Origin: Algoriphagus sp. CAU 1675
GTDB taxonomy: Bacteria; Bacteroidota; Bacteroidia; Cytophagales; Cyclobacteriaceae
Assembly (NCBI RefSeq): GCF_029222925.1
Contig: NZ_JARHUI010000004.1
Coordinates: forward strand, 62,001 to 126,000
Direction: 5' to 3'
Length of the DNA: 64,000 nt
Part shown: piece by piece, positions 23,797-30,127 of the stretch
Layout of the letters: each line of letters starts with the position of its first letter
How positions within the stretch are numbered: position 1 is the stretch's first letter
The notes under the pieces: model-generated
What the model saw: the letters and a program-made list of their open reading frames with translations, nothing else
Told to the model about the DNA's origin: nothing
Databases searched by the model: none
Position numbers and translations under genes: made by a program

Positions 23797-23829
23797 GCCC
23801 CTTAGGAAATAATCCTAAGGGGCTTTTTT
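23797..23829 (+). terminator. Intrinsic terminator of the tricorn-like gene
   Basis: A perfect 11-bp stem GCCCCTTAGGA/TCCTAAGGGGC with a 5-nt loop (23797-23823) is followed by six T. It separates the tricorn gene from the next unit. Confidence 0.95.
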
Positions 23830-24015
23830 ATTTATTCCATTTTTCTACTTCCCGAAAATTTTATGGTTGATAAAGCCCATTTTCTATGAAAAATCAAAAA
23901 TTTCTGGAATTCCCTGACTTTTGTCATGGGCAGTCCAAAGGAAAAGGGAAATTTTTGCAGTGCCCTGAAATTTGAATCTCAGCCCTGTACTCATTCGGGG
24001 AATTCCTTTCGATTT

Positions 24016-25824
24016 ATGCAAAACACCTTAGTACCCCACTCTTTCCATATTCCAGTAATGGGACTTGGATACACTGTTGACACACCAATTAAAGTAGCCC
24101 GCTTTGGAATTTCCAGTGTTGTTTCCATCATGGATGATCAACTTTTGGAGGACATGCGAAAGATCCACTCCAAAAACTTCGGAATTCCTTTTAATCCCAT
24201 TGAAGAAAATGAAGAAGATTATCGGGCCCGTAGAATCACGGCCTATCTGAATTTCCTTCAAGAAATCATCGATCAACAAATCCAAGCTTTAAGAGAAGAA
24301 GAAAAGCCTGAAAATATCAAACAATATCTTGAACTTCTACCACAGGAAAACTCGCTGTCCACCTTGTTTAGCGAATGGGAAACTGCTGAAGCCAAGGACA
24401 AGCTCATCTTGATGGAAAAAATTCGAAATGGCATCGTGGCTGGCTCTGTGGATGTCAATATCATGACCAAGGTGGACAAGATCAACCGAAATCAAAAGGG
24501 TGAGGAACTACCCAGAGAATTTTCTGATGCCCTATCTGCCCTGCGAGGTTTTGCCAATAGCCGACTAAATGGCTCTGTGGTGTTTTCCGCAGGCATGAAT
24601 CCTGCCTTGTTTAGTTATGCCGAGCAATTCAAGGACTTTTTCCCAGATGAATCAGGAATCATCCGCAAAGGAATCATCCTCAAGGTAAGTGATTACCGCT
24701 CAGCTTTGATTCAGGGGAAATTCATGGCAAAAAAAGGACTCTGGATTTCGGAATTCCGGATTGAATCCGGACTCAACTGTGGGGGTCATGCCTTCGCCAC
24801 AGATGGATTTCTGGCAGGACCTATCCTGGAGGAATTCAAAATAAACAGACAATCCCTTTTTCAGACTTTGAAAGAAACCTGGCAGCAGGCACTCCTTGAA
24901 AAAGGAATAAGTTCTCCAGAAACCCCAACTACTAAAATCAGCTATCAGGGTGGAATAGGTACGGCAAGGGAAGATGCTTTTTTAAGAAAATACTATGAAC
25001 TTGACGGTACTGGTTGGGGCAGCCCATTCTTGTTGGTTCCAGAAGCTACGTCGGTAGATCGGGACACTATTGATCGGATCATAAAAGCCAAGAACTCTGA
25101 CTTCTACCTCAGTCATGCTTCACCCTTGGGAGTTCCCTTCAACAACCTAAGAAATAGCAGCGGAGAGGAACAACGCATTCAAAGAATTCAGAAAAACAGG
25201 CCAGGAAGTCCTTGTTACAAAAAATTCCTGACTTTCAGCACCGAGTTTACAGAGAAGCCCATCTGTACGGCCTCCAGACAGTACCAAAACCTAAAGATGA
25301 AAAGTTTTGAAAAGGGAGAGATCAGTCCAACAGAGCTTAACGAAACTTTAGAAAAAGATTGTCTCTGTGAGGGACTTGGAGCTCCTGCAATTCTCGCAAA
25401 CGGAGAAATTCCAAGAAGAAACCTTTCCGCTGTCACAATCTGCCCAGGGCCCAATTTGGCCTATTTCAAGGGAGTGTTTAGCCTGAAAGAAATGGTGGAT
25501 CATATTTATGGAAAAGTAAACCTCAAATTGGAACTGGATCGTCCACATGTATTCATTAAGGAAGCGGAACTTTATCTTAACTATCTGAAAAAGGAATTCC
25601 AAAAACTCCTTCCAGAGAGCTCTCCCAAACAAAGCTCCTACCTTGAAAAATTCAGAAAAAACCTGGATCAAGGGCTCAAGTATTACCAGGACCTGGTGGC
25701 AACTGTTCAACTTGATTCCGAGGAAATATTGGAGAAAATGAAAAAACAGTTGAGCGATCTATTGAATGAAACCGAACGATTACAAGCACCTCACACTCAG
25801 GAGTATACTTTGAGCGAACAATAA
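24016..25824 (+). CDS. Uncharacterised TIM-barrel protein resembling nitronate monooxygenase, with Cys cluster
   Basis: About 602 residues from the ATG at 24016; an in-frame ATG at 23926 would add 30 residues without an obvious domain. I do not know this as a named family. Three segments look like the FMN-binding TIM barrel of nitronate monooxygenase/FabK proteins: the start MGLGYTVDTPIKVARFG, GLNCGGHAFATDG (compare the EAGGH motif; Cys255), and YQGGIGTAREDAF then FLLVPEATSVD (compare the phosphate-binding GGI..GR...TPEA). It also has a large insertion at about residues 60-230 and five cysteines (Cys400, 417, 449, 451, 476) at the C-terminal end of the barrel, possibly a metal or Fe-S site. 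The tail (500-600) is helical and charged. It is the first of three plus-strand genes ending in a copper-type TonB receptor. Confidence 0.6.
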   Translation: MQNTLVPHSFHIPVMGLGYTVDTPIKVARFGISSVVSIMDDQLLEDMRKIHSKNFGIPFNPIEENEEDYRARRITAYLNFLQEIIDQQIQALREEEKPENIKQYLELLPQENSLSTLFSEWETAEAKDKLILMEKIRNGIVAGSVDVNIMTKVDKINRNQKGEELPREFSDALSALRGFANSRLNGSVVFSAGMNPALFSYAEQFKDFFPDESGIIRKGIILKVSDYRSALIQGKFMAKKGLWISEFRIESGLNCGGHAFATDGFLAGPILEEFKINRQSLFQTLKETWQQALLEKGISSPETPTTKISYQGGIGTAREDAFLRKYYELDGTGWGSPFLLVPEATSVDRDTIDRIIKAKNSDFYLSHASPLGVPFNNLRNSSGEEQRIQRIQKNRPGSPCYKKFLTFSTEFTEKPICTASRQYQNLKMKSFEKGEISPTELNETLEKDCLCEGLGAPAILANGEIPRRNLSAVTICPGPNLAYFKGVFSLKEMVDHIYGKVNLKLELDRPHVFIKEAELYLNYLKKEFQKLLPESSPKQSSYLEKFRKNLDQGLKYYQDLVATVQLDSEEILEKMKKQLSDLLNETERLQAPHTQEYTLSEQ

Positions 25825-25910
25825 AATAACCGGGCACCCATAAAATGACCTAGCTTTGGGTGACCAAAATCACCCCTGCTTTAATTAAAATACCGGAAAT
25901 TCGCAGTTCC

Positions 25911-26285
25911 ATGTACAAAGGCCTGTTACATATAGCCTTCTCACTTTTGGTTCTATTGAATGGAATGAGTTATTCTATCATTCAGGGGCAGTTCTACCTT
26001 CAAAGGGATAGAATTGCTGAACTTTTCTGTATTAACCAGGACAAACCAGAACTTCAATGTGATGGGAAATGCGAATTGAGCAAGCGGTTAAATGAGGCTA
26101 AAGAAAAAGAAGAATCCCCCAAAGCCATTGTGCTAAAGGAGTTGAATCTAATTTTCACACTCCCTGAGTCCGTAAATTTTAACGAAAACTCTGGCATCGC
26201 TTCCAATAGCAAACATTCAGAAGCACATTTCCTTCCTAAATTACCCATTCGGGATTTTGATTTTTTTCATCCTCCTCGAATCTGA
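25911..26285 (+). CDS. Small exported Cys-containing protein, putative metal-handling partner of TonB receptor
   Basis: About 124 residues from the ATG at 25911; an upstream GTG at 25860 is in frame but adds no conserved feature. A hydrophobic segment (residues 5-20) looks like a signal or membrane anchor. The core LFCINQDKPELQCDGKCELSKRL has Cys-x9-Cys-x3-Cys, a pattern I associate with small Bacteroidota proteins encoded beside metal receptors. The end FDFFHPPRI and an upstream SKHSEAH are His-bearing. It sits 86 bp after the flavoenzyme-like gene and 79 bp before the receptor gene with no terminator between, suggesting one transcript. A role in copper capture or transfer is inference. Confidence 0.65.
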   Translation: MYKGLLHIAFSLLVLLNGMSYSIIQGQFYLQRDRIAELFCINQDKPELQCDGKCELSKRLNEAKEKEESPKAIVLKELNLIFTLPESVNFNENSGIASNSKHSEAHFLPKLPIRDFDFFHPPRI

Positions 26286-26364
26286 TTGATCAACGTGAAT
26301 TTTATAGGCTTACCTCAAAAGCCAGGGACAAGTATGTCCATTTGAAAAATCAGAAATCACAATT

Positions 26365-28635
26365 ATGAATTTATTACAAAAGTACATTTCGAAAACCGTT
26401 TTGGTTTTCGCCTTGATGCTTTTTGCCTCTTTGAAGGCATCAGCACAAAAAACAATCATTCTACAGTTTCTGGATTCCAATTCAGCAAATCCGATCATAG
26501 GACTGACCTATCATTACGGGCCGAAGGACGGAATTACTGATCAGGACGGAAAAATCAGCTTGGAATATGTTGCTGAAACATCACTTTACCTATCCCATAT
26601 CAGTTATGGTAGTTGGAGTCTTAACCCTGATGAAATCCTTCAGGCTTCCAAAATTGGAAAAGTGTATAGAAAGGAGTCAATTTATGGACTACAACCTGTT
26701 TCAGTCATCTCCTTAAAGCTTGCTCAGGAAAAAGACCAAACAATTGGAATCAGCGAACAAGAAAGACTTCACCATGATGCAGGAGAAGTACTTTCACTAG
26801 ACCCTTCGGTTTCTGGCATCCGGAAAGGGGGAAGTTTTGCTTTTGACCCTGTATTTCGGGGATATAAATATGATCAGCTAAATGTGGTCATTGATGGTTT
26901 GCAAAGTGCGAATGCCGCCTGCCCAAACAGAATGGACCCCCCTACCTCCCAAGTTGCTCTCAATCGAATTCAGAAAGTGGAAATCCTAAAAGGACCCCAT
27001 GCATTGCGCTATGGAATTGGGTTGGGCGGCACATTAAACTATCTCCAGGAAAATCCAGCATTCAGTTCTGAATCCGGAATTTATGGAAGAATTTCCTCCA
27101 TGTTTGAACAGAACGGAAAGGTCACAAGAAATGAAGCTCGCATCGGATTTCAAGGCAGTAAGTATGATGTGGGAATGCTGGGAAGTTTTGCAAAAGGAAA
27201 TGACTACAAAGATGGAAACGGCAATTTTGTTCCTTCAGAATTCTTGCGAGGAACAGCTGGGCTATATGCGGATTTCAAAACCAGTGATAAAGATTTATTC
27301 CAAGTATCTGTAAACAGAAATTTTGCCAGAGACGTAGATTTTGCCAGTCTGGCAATGGATTTACAAAGTGATGATACCTGGATGAGCAGTTTAAGGCATA
27401 GCAGAACTTTCTCTTCCGGCTCTCTTAGTAGCTGGAAAACTTCTGCCTATTTCACCAGAGTAGATCACTTGATGGACAATTTATCAAGGGACCTCAACCC
27501 GAGGATGATGAACGCGAGTGTTCCGGTAATCACCGAAAACTGGGGAGCCAGAACCGAGGGTGAATGGAAGTTCGACAAAGCTAGGCTCTTTGCCGGCGCG
27601 GACTTAAAAACCGAAACAGCAGATGGATTTAGAACAAGAGAAATCCTTATGGGTCCGATGGCAGGGAAAATATTCAAGGACAATATCTGGCAAAACTCCC
27701 AAATCAGAAAAACCGGTGCATTTGCCAATTACATTTTTCCCGCGAATAACTATGTATTAAGCTTTTCAGGTAGACTGGATATCAACCAAGCAATCGCCAA
27801 AAATCCAGCAGATGAATTTCTTCCAACTACCGAGGACACTGAATCCACACAACTCAATCCAGGCATTAGCATTGGTGCTCAAAGAGATTTGGGAAAATCC
27901 TTATCTCTGGGAATTTGGGCTGCTAGCGTCAAAAGAAGCGGAAGTCTTGCCGAACGCTATATCAATTTCCTTCCCATCGGGCTGGATCCTTATGAAATGT
28001 TGGGAAACCCCAACCTAAAACCGGAAACCAATAACGAATTGGACTTGGTATTTGGCCTGCAGAAGGAAAAGTTTTCCTTGGGGCTTACCTTATTCGGTTC
28101 TTACCTGACCAATTATATCACTGCAGAAAAAACCGATTTGGCTCCAAGAATCAACACTAGTCCCGGAGTAAGACAGTTCACCAATCTGGAAGAGGCATTT
28201 AAAACAGGCTTTGAATTCAGTTTCAGCCATCAAATGGCAGAGCATATTTCACAAAACCTAAATGTGGCTTATACCTATGCAAAGGACCTTGAGTTGAATG
28301 CTCCCTTACCAGAAATCGCCCCAATGGATTTGAGGTACTCTCTTCAGGGAAATTTCATTCAAAACAAACTCCAAACACGCCTAAGTCTAAGACATGTCTT
28401 GGCACAAAACCGAATTTCCGAGACATTCTCTGAGCTAAAAACTCCAGAGTTTACCCTTCTAGACTGGGATGCAAGCTATGCCATCTCCAATCAAATACAG
28501 GTAAAAGGGGGCGTACAAAATCTTTTGGATCAGGCTTTTTATGAACACCTAAGTCGCCCAATTGGCATCAATAAAATTCCGCTCTATTCACCTGGGAGAA
28601 ATGTCTTTTTGATGGTCAGCATTAAATTCCCCTAG
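26365..28635 (+). CDS. TonB-dependent outer-membrane receptor, copper type
   Basis: 756 residues. A signal peptide (ends near KASAQ, about residue 28) is followed by a carboxypeptidase-like regulatory domain at about 30-95, a plug domain at about 125-230 (VSGIRKGGSFAFDPVFRG, IDGLQSANAACPNRMDPP, VEILKGPHALRYG) and a 22-strand-type barrel to the end (NVFLMVSIKFP). The ligands of the OprC copper site, described as CxxxM-HxM, are present: Cys186-P-N-R-Met190 in the plug and His368-L-Met370 in the barrel. The size and the CPNRMDPPT string agree with the copper-receptor subgroup (OprC/NosA). Copper is the inferred substrate. It is the third gene of a unit with a small Cys protein and a flavoenzyme-like protein, and a terminator follows. 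Confidence 0.9.
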   Translation: MNLLQKYISKTVLVFALMLFASLKASAQKTIILQFLDSNSANPIIGLTYHYGPKDGITDQDGKISLEYVAETSLYLSHISYGSWSLNPDEILQASKIGKVYRKESIYGLQPVSVISLKLAQEKDQTIGISEQERLHHDAGEVLSLDPSVSGIRKGGSFAFDPVFRGYKYDQLNVVIDGLQSANAACPNRMDPPTSQVALNRIQKVEILKGPHALRYGIGLGGTLNYLQENPAFSSESGIYGRISSMFEQNGKVTRNEARIGFQGSKYDVGMLGSFAKGNDYKDGNGNFVPSEFLRGTAGLYADFKTSDKDLFQVSVNRNFARDVDFASLAMDLQSDDTWMSSLRHSRTFSSGSLSSWKTSAYFTRVDHLMDNLSRDLNPRMMNASVPVITENWGARTEGEWKFDKARLFAGADLKTETADGFRTREILMGPMAGKIFKDNIWQNSQIRKTGAFANYIFPANNYVLSFSGRLDINQAIAKNPADEFLPTTEDTESTQLNPGISIGAQRDLGKSLSLGIWAASVKRSGSLAERYINFLPIGLDPYEMLGNPNLKPETNNELDLVFGLQKEKFSLGLTLFGSYLTNYITAEKTDLAPRINTSPGVRQFTNLEEAFKTGFEFSFSHQMAEHISQNLNVAYTYAKDLELNAPLPEIAPMDLRYSLQGNFIQNKLQTRLSLRHVLAQNRISETFSELKTPEFTLLDWDASYAISNQIQVKGGVQNLLDQAFYEHLSRPIGINKIPLYSPGRNVFLMVSIKFP

Positions 28636-28711: not shown

Positions 28712-30127
28712 ATGAAGCAAAAATATCACCTCCGGACAATCTCCACAGTTAGTGATTGGACACTTTCCATCATCATAGGCCTATTTCTTTTTTCCTGTAA
28801 AAGCCATACTGAACCAGAAATTCTGTTTTATTTAACAGACCCTTCTACTCAGGTTCTTTTTGAAAAACAATCAATCGAACCAATGACAGGTTCTGTGCCA
28901 GACCTTAAAATTGAAGTGGACGCAACAACACAATTCCAGAGTATGGATGGTTTTGGCTTTACCCTGAGCCAAGGAAGTGCCCAACATTTACTTGGAATGA
29001 GTGACTCTGCCAGATCAACCATCCTTCAGGAGCTTTTTGGTAATGGAGAAAATGACATCCGGATTTCCTACCTCAGATTGTCTGTAGCATCTTCAGACTT
29101 AAATGAATATCCTTTTTCCTATGATGATCTAGAAGATTCCTTGGCAATTGATCCGGAATTGAATCAGTTTACCTTAGGACCAGACACTTTGGATGTCATC
29201 CCGGTATTAAAAGAGATTCTGGCCATTAATCCAAAAATCAAGTTGATGGGTTCCCCCTGGTCCCCACCCGCTTGGATGAAAGACAATAAAGACACTAGAG
29301 GAGGTTCTTTACTTGAGGAGTTTGAACCGGTCTATGCTCAATATCTAGTTAAGTATATCCAGGAAATGAGAAAACTTGGAATTGAAATTGAAGCCTTGAC
29401 CATCCAAAATGAACCACTTCATCCAGGCAACAATCCCTCCCTTCTCATGCTTCCAGATCAACAGGCTCGATTTATCGGCAAACATCTTGGGCCAGCATTT
29501 TTAGAGGAGGGGATCAAAACCAAAATCATTGTATACGATCACAATGCAGATCGCCCGGACTATCCCATTTCTGTTTTGAGTGATTCTCTGGCCTACCCTT
29601 TTATAGATGGCTCTGCTTTTCATCTATATGGCGGGCAAATCGAGGCCCTGTCTGAAGTACATAAGGCTTTTCCTGAAAAAAACCTTTATTTCACAGAGCA
29701 ATGGATCGGAGCTCCCGGAAACTTGTCCGGAGATCTTCCTTGGCATATCAAAAACCTGATTATAAAAGCCTCTCTTAATTGGGCTAAAACTGTATTGGAA
29801 TGGAATCTCAGCTCCAATCCTACATTGACCCCACACACCGACCAAGGAGGATGTGACCGATGCTTAGGTGCAATTAGCATAGATGGAAATGAAGTTGTAA
29901 GAAACCCTGCTTACTACATCATCGCACATGCAAGCAAATTTGTGGATCCGGGTTCATTCAGAATAGAAACTAGTCAAATAGAAGGTTTACCGAATGTAGC
30001 CTTTATTAGGCCTGATGGAAAAAAAGTGCTGATTGCCCTGAATGAATCTGAGAACAAAAAAGATTTTCTTATTTCAGATCATTCCTTTAGCCTGAATCCA
30101 GGTGCAGTAGGAACCTGGGTCTGGTAA
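28712..30127 (+). CDS. Glycoside hydrolase family 30 (glucosylceramidase-like) lipoprotein
   Basis: 471 residues. The N-terminus carries a hydrophobic stretch ending in a lipobox-like FLFSC (about residue 29), so the enzyme is probably lipid-anchored and extracytoplasmic. GH30 hallmarks are GFGFTLSQGSA near the start, RLSVASSDL, LMGSPWSPPAWMKDN, the acid/base Glu234 in TIQNEP and the nucleophile Glu329 in YFTEQW. The end has the short beta domain seen after the barrel (VAFIRPDGKKVLIALNE). It probably cleaves beta-linked glucosyl or xylosyl substrates; the exact one is not decided by sequence. It stands alone between two terminators. Confidence 0.93.
   Translation: MKQKYHLRTISTVSDWTLSIIIGLFLFSCKSHTEPEILFYLTDPSTQVLFEKQSIEPMTGSVPDLKIEVDATTQFQSMDGFGFTLSQGSAQHLLGMSDSARSTILQELFGNGENDIRISYLRLSVASSDLNEYPFSYDDLEDSLAIDPELNQFTLGPDTLDVIPVLKEILAINPKIKLMGSPWSPPAWMKDNKDTRGGSLLEEFEPVYAQYLVKYIQEMRKLGIEIEALTIQNEPLHPGNNPSLLMLPDQQARFIGKHLGPAFLEEGIKTKIIVYDHNADRPDYPISVLSDSLAYPFIDGSAFHLYGGQIEALSEVHKAFPEKNLYFTEQWIGAPGNLSGDLPWHIKNLIIKASLNWAKTVLEWNLSSNPTLTPHTDQGGCDRCLGAISIDGNEVVRNPAYYIIAHASKFVDPGSFRIETSQIEGLPNVAFIRPDGKKVLIALNESENKKDFLISDHSFSLNPGAVGTWVW

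Follow-up and report, generated by a model that had tools for sequence, protein, structure and literature searches.

The locus discussed here, situated on a 64-kb stretch of DNA (the window, taken at its full length) from a Bacteroidota genome of 3.81 Mb, pairs a putative copper receptor of the outer membrane with an enzyme that resembles FabX in its predicted fold. Relatives of both have been described. The TonB-dependent receptor OprC binds copper through C143, M147, H323, and M325 (PMC8610252), and PMC11213822 gives G2EC70, an OprC-like receptor, with locus tags close to those of a P-type ATPase, CcoG, and NosL. On the enzyme side, FabX contains flavin mononucleotide (FMN) and a [4Fe-4S] cluster and introduces the cis double bond found in unsaturated fatty acids, O2 serving as the acceptor (PMC8626469). 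PMC11300592 cites UfaA (NGO1024) of Neisseria gonorrhoeae, a protein of the nitronate monooxygenase (NMO) type, as a requirement for making unsaturated fatty acids anaerobically.

In the window, three open reading frames (ORFs) follow one another on the forward strand, encoding a 602-aa protein, a small Cys protein, and a 756-aa receptor, in that order. The original prediction saw in them one unit of copper uptake and handling, with the large protein as a user or sensor of copper or of a compound linked to it. We consider a different arrangement fairly probable, namely a low-oxygen module that combines respiratory copper uptake with a FabX-like redox enzyme in two neighboring expression units of the CRP/FNR type. 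In our best reading, these units are linked by their shared use at low oxygen and not by a copper reaction of the 602-aa protein.

A FabX-Like Protein Family with CRP/FNR-Type Promoter Signals

Among named organisms, Algoriphagus species have the closest relatives of the 602-aa protein (71% identity). This protein has no significant sequence match in Pfam (nitronate monooxygenase family PF03060 included), NCBIfam, or PDB, and a literature search returned no paper on the family. A structure model built with 60 family members (predicted local distance difference test score, pLDDT, 91; predicted template modeling score, pTM, 0.91) is a TIM barrel, for which Foldseek ranks FabX first in PDB (9lt5, E 2.9e-10), followed by PfaD, FabK, and NMO. 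The model thus supports the flavoenzyme-like character predicted for this protein and points to a TIM barrel of the FabX/PfaD/FabK type. H258, within the motif G-L-N-C-G-G-H258, is invariant in all 60 family sequences, as are six Cys residues (Table 1). When the family profile is compared with NMO/FabX proteins, the same motifs align in the same order, including H258 with a FabX-like GGH; by this alignment, H258 is the counterpart of the catalytic His of the NMO family (His182 in the Gly-Gly-His of FabX).

The promoters of the family carry a recurrent signal. The CRP/FNR-type palindrome TGAY-N4-RTCA stands upstream of 66 of the 93 family genes, versus 100 of 616 other gene starts (p 3e-26) and 1.5 expected before the 93 genes from shuffling, and its spacer of 4 is strongly preferred (60 cases vs 0-8 for other spacers). 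We scored the Bacteroidota -7 element as TAnnTTTG with at most one mismatch and counted its distance from the palindrome start. Among family promoters it lies at 35 or 57 bp in 20 cases each (median 1 at other distances), and the 604 palindromes in all loci give 73 and 68 cases (median 5); of the 67 family promoters with a palindrome, 46 have it at about one of these distances from the -7 element. The two positions are two helical turns apart and match the sites at -41.5 and -61.5 known for CRP/FNR activators. The same layout precedes ccoNO, ccoI, hemN, RIC, fasciclin, NrdD-like, and FNR-like genes, and among the genes behind such promoters are those for oxygen-independent replacements (HemN, anaerobic ribonucleotide reductase) and for high-affinity respiration. 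Our literature search found no paper on this promoter code in Bacteroidota. The FNR-like genes at loci L060 and L067, whose products have Cys-rich N-termini, are candidate regulators and possibly autoregulated.

The 602-aa gene of the window has this layout itself, with TGACTTTTGTCA and AATTTTTG downstream of a strong terminator-like hairpin (23797-23823) that ends the preceding gene. A further -7-type element, TAGCTTTG, and palindrome, GTGACCAAAATCAC, fall within the 86-bp gap between the 602-aa and small Cys genes. The whole window holds 7 sites with the palindrome core.

Table 1. Features of the locus, in window coordinates
Feature	Position	Strand	Details
CRP/FNR-type palindrome TGACTTTTGTCA	23915..23926	+	101 bp before the 602-aa ATG
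-7-like element AATTTTTG	23950..23957	+	TAnnTTTG with one mismatch; exactly 35 bp after the start of TGACTTTTGTCA
Gene for 602-aa FabX-like TIM-barrel protein	24016..25824	+	L253-N-C-G-G-H258 motif; invariant C255, C400, C417, C449, C451, C476
Bacteroidota -7-type element TAGCTTTG (TAnnTTTG)	25851..25858	+	only one on the + strand from 23.7 to 28.7 kb
CRP/FNR-type palindrome GTGACCAAAATCAC	25860..25873	+	about 50 bp before the small Cys gene
Small Cys protein, membrane-anchored/exported	25911..26285	+	C-x9-C-x3-C, C-terminal FFHPP; probable start ATG 25911
OprC-like TonB-dependent copper receptor, 756 aa	26365..28635	+	CxxxM-HxM site C186, M190, H368, M370

The distribution of the family points in the same low-oxygen direction. 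Of 247 genomes sampled from the class, 70 have a member of the family and 3 have FabX, and none has both; a search of the window's own genome gave no FabX match and no strong match of the NMO/FabK type. At 94 loci of the family (the 80 named loci being the closest ones only), cbb3-oxidase genes lie within about 10 kb in 23 cases, denitrification or nitric oxide (NO) genes in 28, and either in 50. NosZ or an NO reductase is present in 12 of 15 carrier genomes vs 21 of 133 non-carriers (148 genomes of the order; p 7e-7).

This co-occurrence, the Nor, Nos, RIC, and Rrf2 regulators among the neighbors, and the fold within the NMO superfamily would also suit an NMO-type flavoprotein of nitrosative stress, oxidizing nitronates or reducing NO-derived compounds from denitrification. 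We hold such a role to be unlikely, as FabX and PfaD, both enzymes of acyl-ACP (acyl carrier protein) substrates, are closer in fold than NMO proper, many 602-aa loci have a cbb3 oxidase and hemN instead of NO genes, and 3 of the 15 carrier genomes have neither NosZ nor NO reductase.

The Receptor and Its Small Cys-Rich Partner

OprC (structure 6fok) is the best solved match of the receptor by sequence (phmmer, E 9e-33), and Cys186, Met190, His368, and Met370 align residue for residue with its motifs ACPNRMD and DHxMDN. Both the CxxxM-HxM site and the OprC-like ligand spacing named in the original prediction were thus recovered, the latter with 182 residues in the window receptor and 180 in OprC. 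The four putative ligands are invariant in 8 other full-length receptors that we aligned. The match to TIGR01778 (TonB-copper; 2e-66, 225 bits) lies under the model cut-off of 472.45, so that we regard the receptor as an OprC-like relative and not as a TIGR01778 equivalog. Its structure model, derived from only five sequences, is poor (pLDDT 59, plug unmodeled), and the copper specificity therefore rests on sequence, not geometry; the top Foldseek match of the barrel is again OprC. With OprC as the best match by sequence and fold, the predicted uptake of copper by this receptor is supported.

The predicted pairing with the small Cys protein also held, since its gene lies directly upstream of the receptor at every receptor locus examined. 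The ORF opens at GTG 25860, and we judged the in-frame ATG at 25911 to be the better start. Three Cys (C-x9-C-x3-C) and the C-terminal FHPP are invariant in 6 homologs. In Cecembia rubra, the small gene (L050:13151-13417) is shortened and degenerate-looking, has lost the conserved Cys, and is followed by no receptor; a nos cluster adjoins it.

The same genome encodes a second OprC-like receptor, 65% identical to the window copy (L026:3974-6235 = G000:C1:338864-341095). It lies about 18 kb from nosZ on an island that also holds nosD, nosF, nosL, RIC, Rrf2, and heme-copper subunits, in the order hemerythrin-like gene, gene for a membrane protein of about 370 aa, small Cys gene, and receptor. In a receptor tree with partly supported inner forks, the window copy groups with copies of its own genus and not with other 602-linked receptors; an old duplication behind the two copies fits. 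Beside the second receptor stands a fasciclin gene with a palindrome (L126:6158-6169) and a -7 element 57 bp off, and the palindrome is present at 6 of the 8 fasciclin genes located near 602-aa homologs. The conserved membrane protein (L026:2381-3529 and homologs) sits between the 602-aa and small genes in relatives, and its gene is absent at the corresponding place in the window. Pfam gives it no match over the cut-off; an NnrS-like identity was dropped because a Pfam search as permissive as E 5 gave no hit to NnrS.

A GH30-family gene related to endo-beta-1,6-glucanases (window 28712-30127) follows 3' of the receptor, past a T-rich region, and is probably unrelated.

A Real but Nonobligatory Neighborhood

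In four other Cyclobacteriaceae genomes from three genera, namely Mariniradius, Cyclobacterium (2 species), and Cognataquiflexum, the 602-aa gene lies beside the receptor module, in the order 602-aa gene, membrane protein, small Cys protein, and receptor. This revises the view taken from a 148-genome sample that the neighbors were not conserved. Two genomes of the window's own genus (G035 and G050) keep the receptor and have no 602-aa gene, and in a third (G091) the two lie on different contigs. The trio is thus a real but not an obligatory neighborhood: conservation with the receptor, which the original prediction had set as one of its tests, holds throughout for the small Cys gene and only in part for the 602-aa gene. 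The receptor frame in G091 is broken by a stop into two ORFs (L028:5516-7780), and this copy may be defective.

How far do these data support a single copper unit? The genes share a strand, a search for terminator-like sites from 25824 to 26365 on the + strand found none (as the original prediction stated), and the neighborhood recurs in the four genomes; the six invariant Cys of the 602-aa protein could likewise be taken as a sign of copper handling. The claim of one unit nonetheless stands only in its shared strand and recurring neighborhood, since the small gene is preceded by a -7-type element and palindrome of its own, separate from the promoter-like signals of the 602-aa gene. The copper role of the large protein fares worse: close relatives have the receptor without the 602-aa gene, the receptor is near the family gene at only 4 of the 94 loci (about 90 have none nearby) while low-oxygen genes stand near roughly half, the promoter of the family gene is of the CRP/FNR type, and the 602-aa protein shares its fold with flavoenzymes that act on acyl chains. 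We regard this explanation as very improbable.

The independent distribution of 602-aa gene and receptor in most genomes, together with the distinct promoter signals, could instead mean that the two are merely adjacent and functionally unrelated, leaving the receptor and small protein as the only functional unit. This, too, appears quite unlikely to us, as the neighborhood is kept across Mariniradius, Cyclobacterium, and Cognataquiflexum, and the small gene and the 602-aa gene are preceded by an identical palindrome core, TGACCAAAATCA; in Cognataquiflexum, the core of GTGACCAAAATCAC recurs unchanged before both.

Several observations weigh against the low-oxygen module that we favor. On the regulatory side, GTGACCAAAATCAC sits just downstream of TAGCTTTG, a position compatible with repression no less than with activation, and several related receptor units lack the palindrome upstream. 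Of the 94 loci, 44 are without a cbb3 or NO neighbor, and the rows behind the p-values are related species, so that these values overstate independence. As to the enzyme, hhalign gives E 0.028 for the family against the NMO/FabX profile, with 4 of 200 column shuffles scoring as high, and no significant match to FabX alone. The CysX3CysX3CysX11Cys [4Fe-4S] pattern of FabX was sought in the family and not found, the spacing of C400, C417, C449, C451, and C476 differing from that of the FabX cluster ligands. Because the profile match is only weakly above shuffles, we call the protein FabX-like by fold, not a FabX.

Proposed Mechanism and Significance

In the low-oxygen module, the first unit would consist of the 602-aa protein, a soluble TIM-barrel oxidoreductase from the NMO/FabK/PfaD/FabX superfamily that probably depends on FMN and Fe-S and would be activated at falling oxygen by what we presume to be a regulator of the CRP/FNR family. 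Its most likely task would be to stand in for an oxygen-dependent step, placing the double bond of unsaturated fatty acids into acyl-ACP in the manner of FabX. Other genes with this promoter include oxygen-independent replacements, and a FabX-like enzyme would suit as the counterpart of oxygen-dependent fatty-acid desaturation. By analogy with FabX, this job and substrate could well be correct, even if we would place the chances slightly below even. More tentatively, and with the balance leaning against it, this widespread family may represent a low-oxygen acyl-ACP dehydrogenase/isomerase under FNR control that differs from FabX and perhaps hands its electrons to the respiratory chain rather than to O2.

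The second unit would comprise the small Cys-rich, membrane-anchored protein and the OprC/NosA-like receptor, and the site before the small gene may activate or repress it. The receptor would move copper across the outer membrane via its CxxxM-HxM site. Its small partner would probably accept or reduce periplasmic copper destined for cuproenzymes such as cbb3 oxidase and N2O reductase, if copper flows in this direction. Such import would suit the copper demand of both enzymes.

If the dehydrogenase/isomerase reading is true, bacteria without FabX could make unsaturated fatty acids once their oxygen-dependent desaturases stop, and the acyl-chain role would explain their membrane fluidity under scarce oxygen. 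Moreover, OprC/NosA-type copper import would extend to low-oxygen loci of Bacteroidota, and for an unannotated enzyme family there is now a predicted fold, an active-site motif that is conserved, and an indication of its regulation. For the phylum, the palindrome TGAY-N4-RTCA together with a -7 element 35 or 57 bp from it offers a testable signature of a low-oxygen regulon.

Comparison with Known Systems

FabX of Helicobacter pylori (PMC8626469) has in common with the 602-aa protein the TIM barrel, the Gly-Gly-His, a Cys-rich C-terminal part, and a low-oxygen setting. The two differ in length (363 vs 602 aa) and Cys spacing, and there is no significant single-sequence match between them. UfaA is described as a protein of the NMO type, and its reported role lies in anaerobic fatty-acid synthesis (PMC11300592).

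Like OprC of Pseudomonas aeruginosa and NosA of P. stutzeri (PMC8610252), the window receptor is TonB-dependent with a CxxxM-HxM copper site. Unlike them, it has an extra N-terminal domain and a small Cys protein as its partner, joined in relatives by a membrane protein. G2EC70 of Bizionia argentinensis likewise belongs to the Bacteroidota and has the CxxxM-HxM motif, yet it represents another lineage, and the passages of PMC11213822 considered mention neither a small Cys protein nor a FabX-like neighbor. Finally, the CrtA copper receptors (PMC12914433) are tied to respiratory oxidases, as we propose for the window receptor, whereas they form a receptor cluster separate from OprC and import chelated copper.

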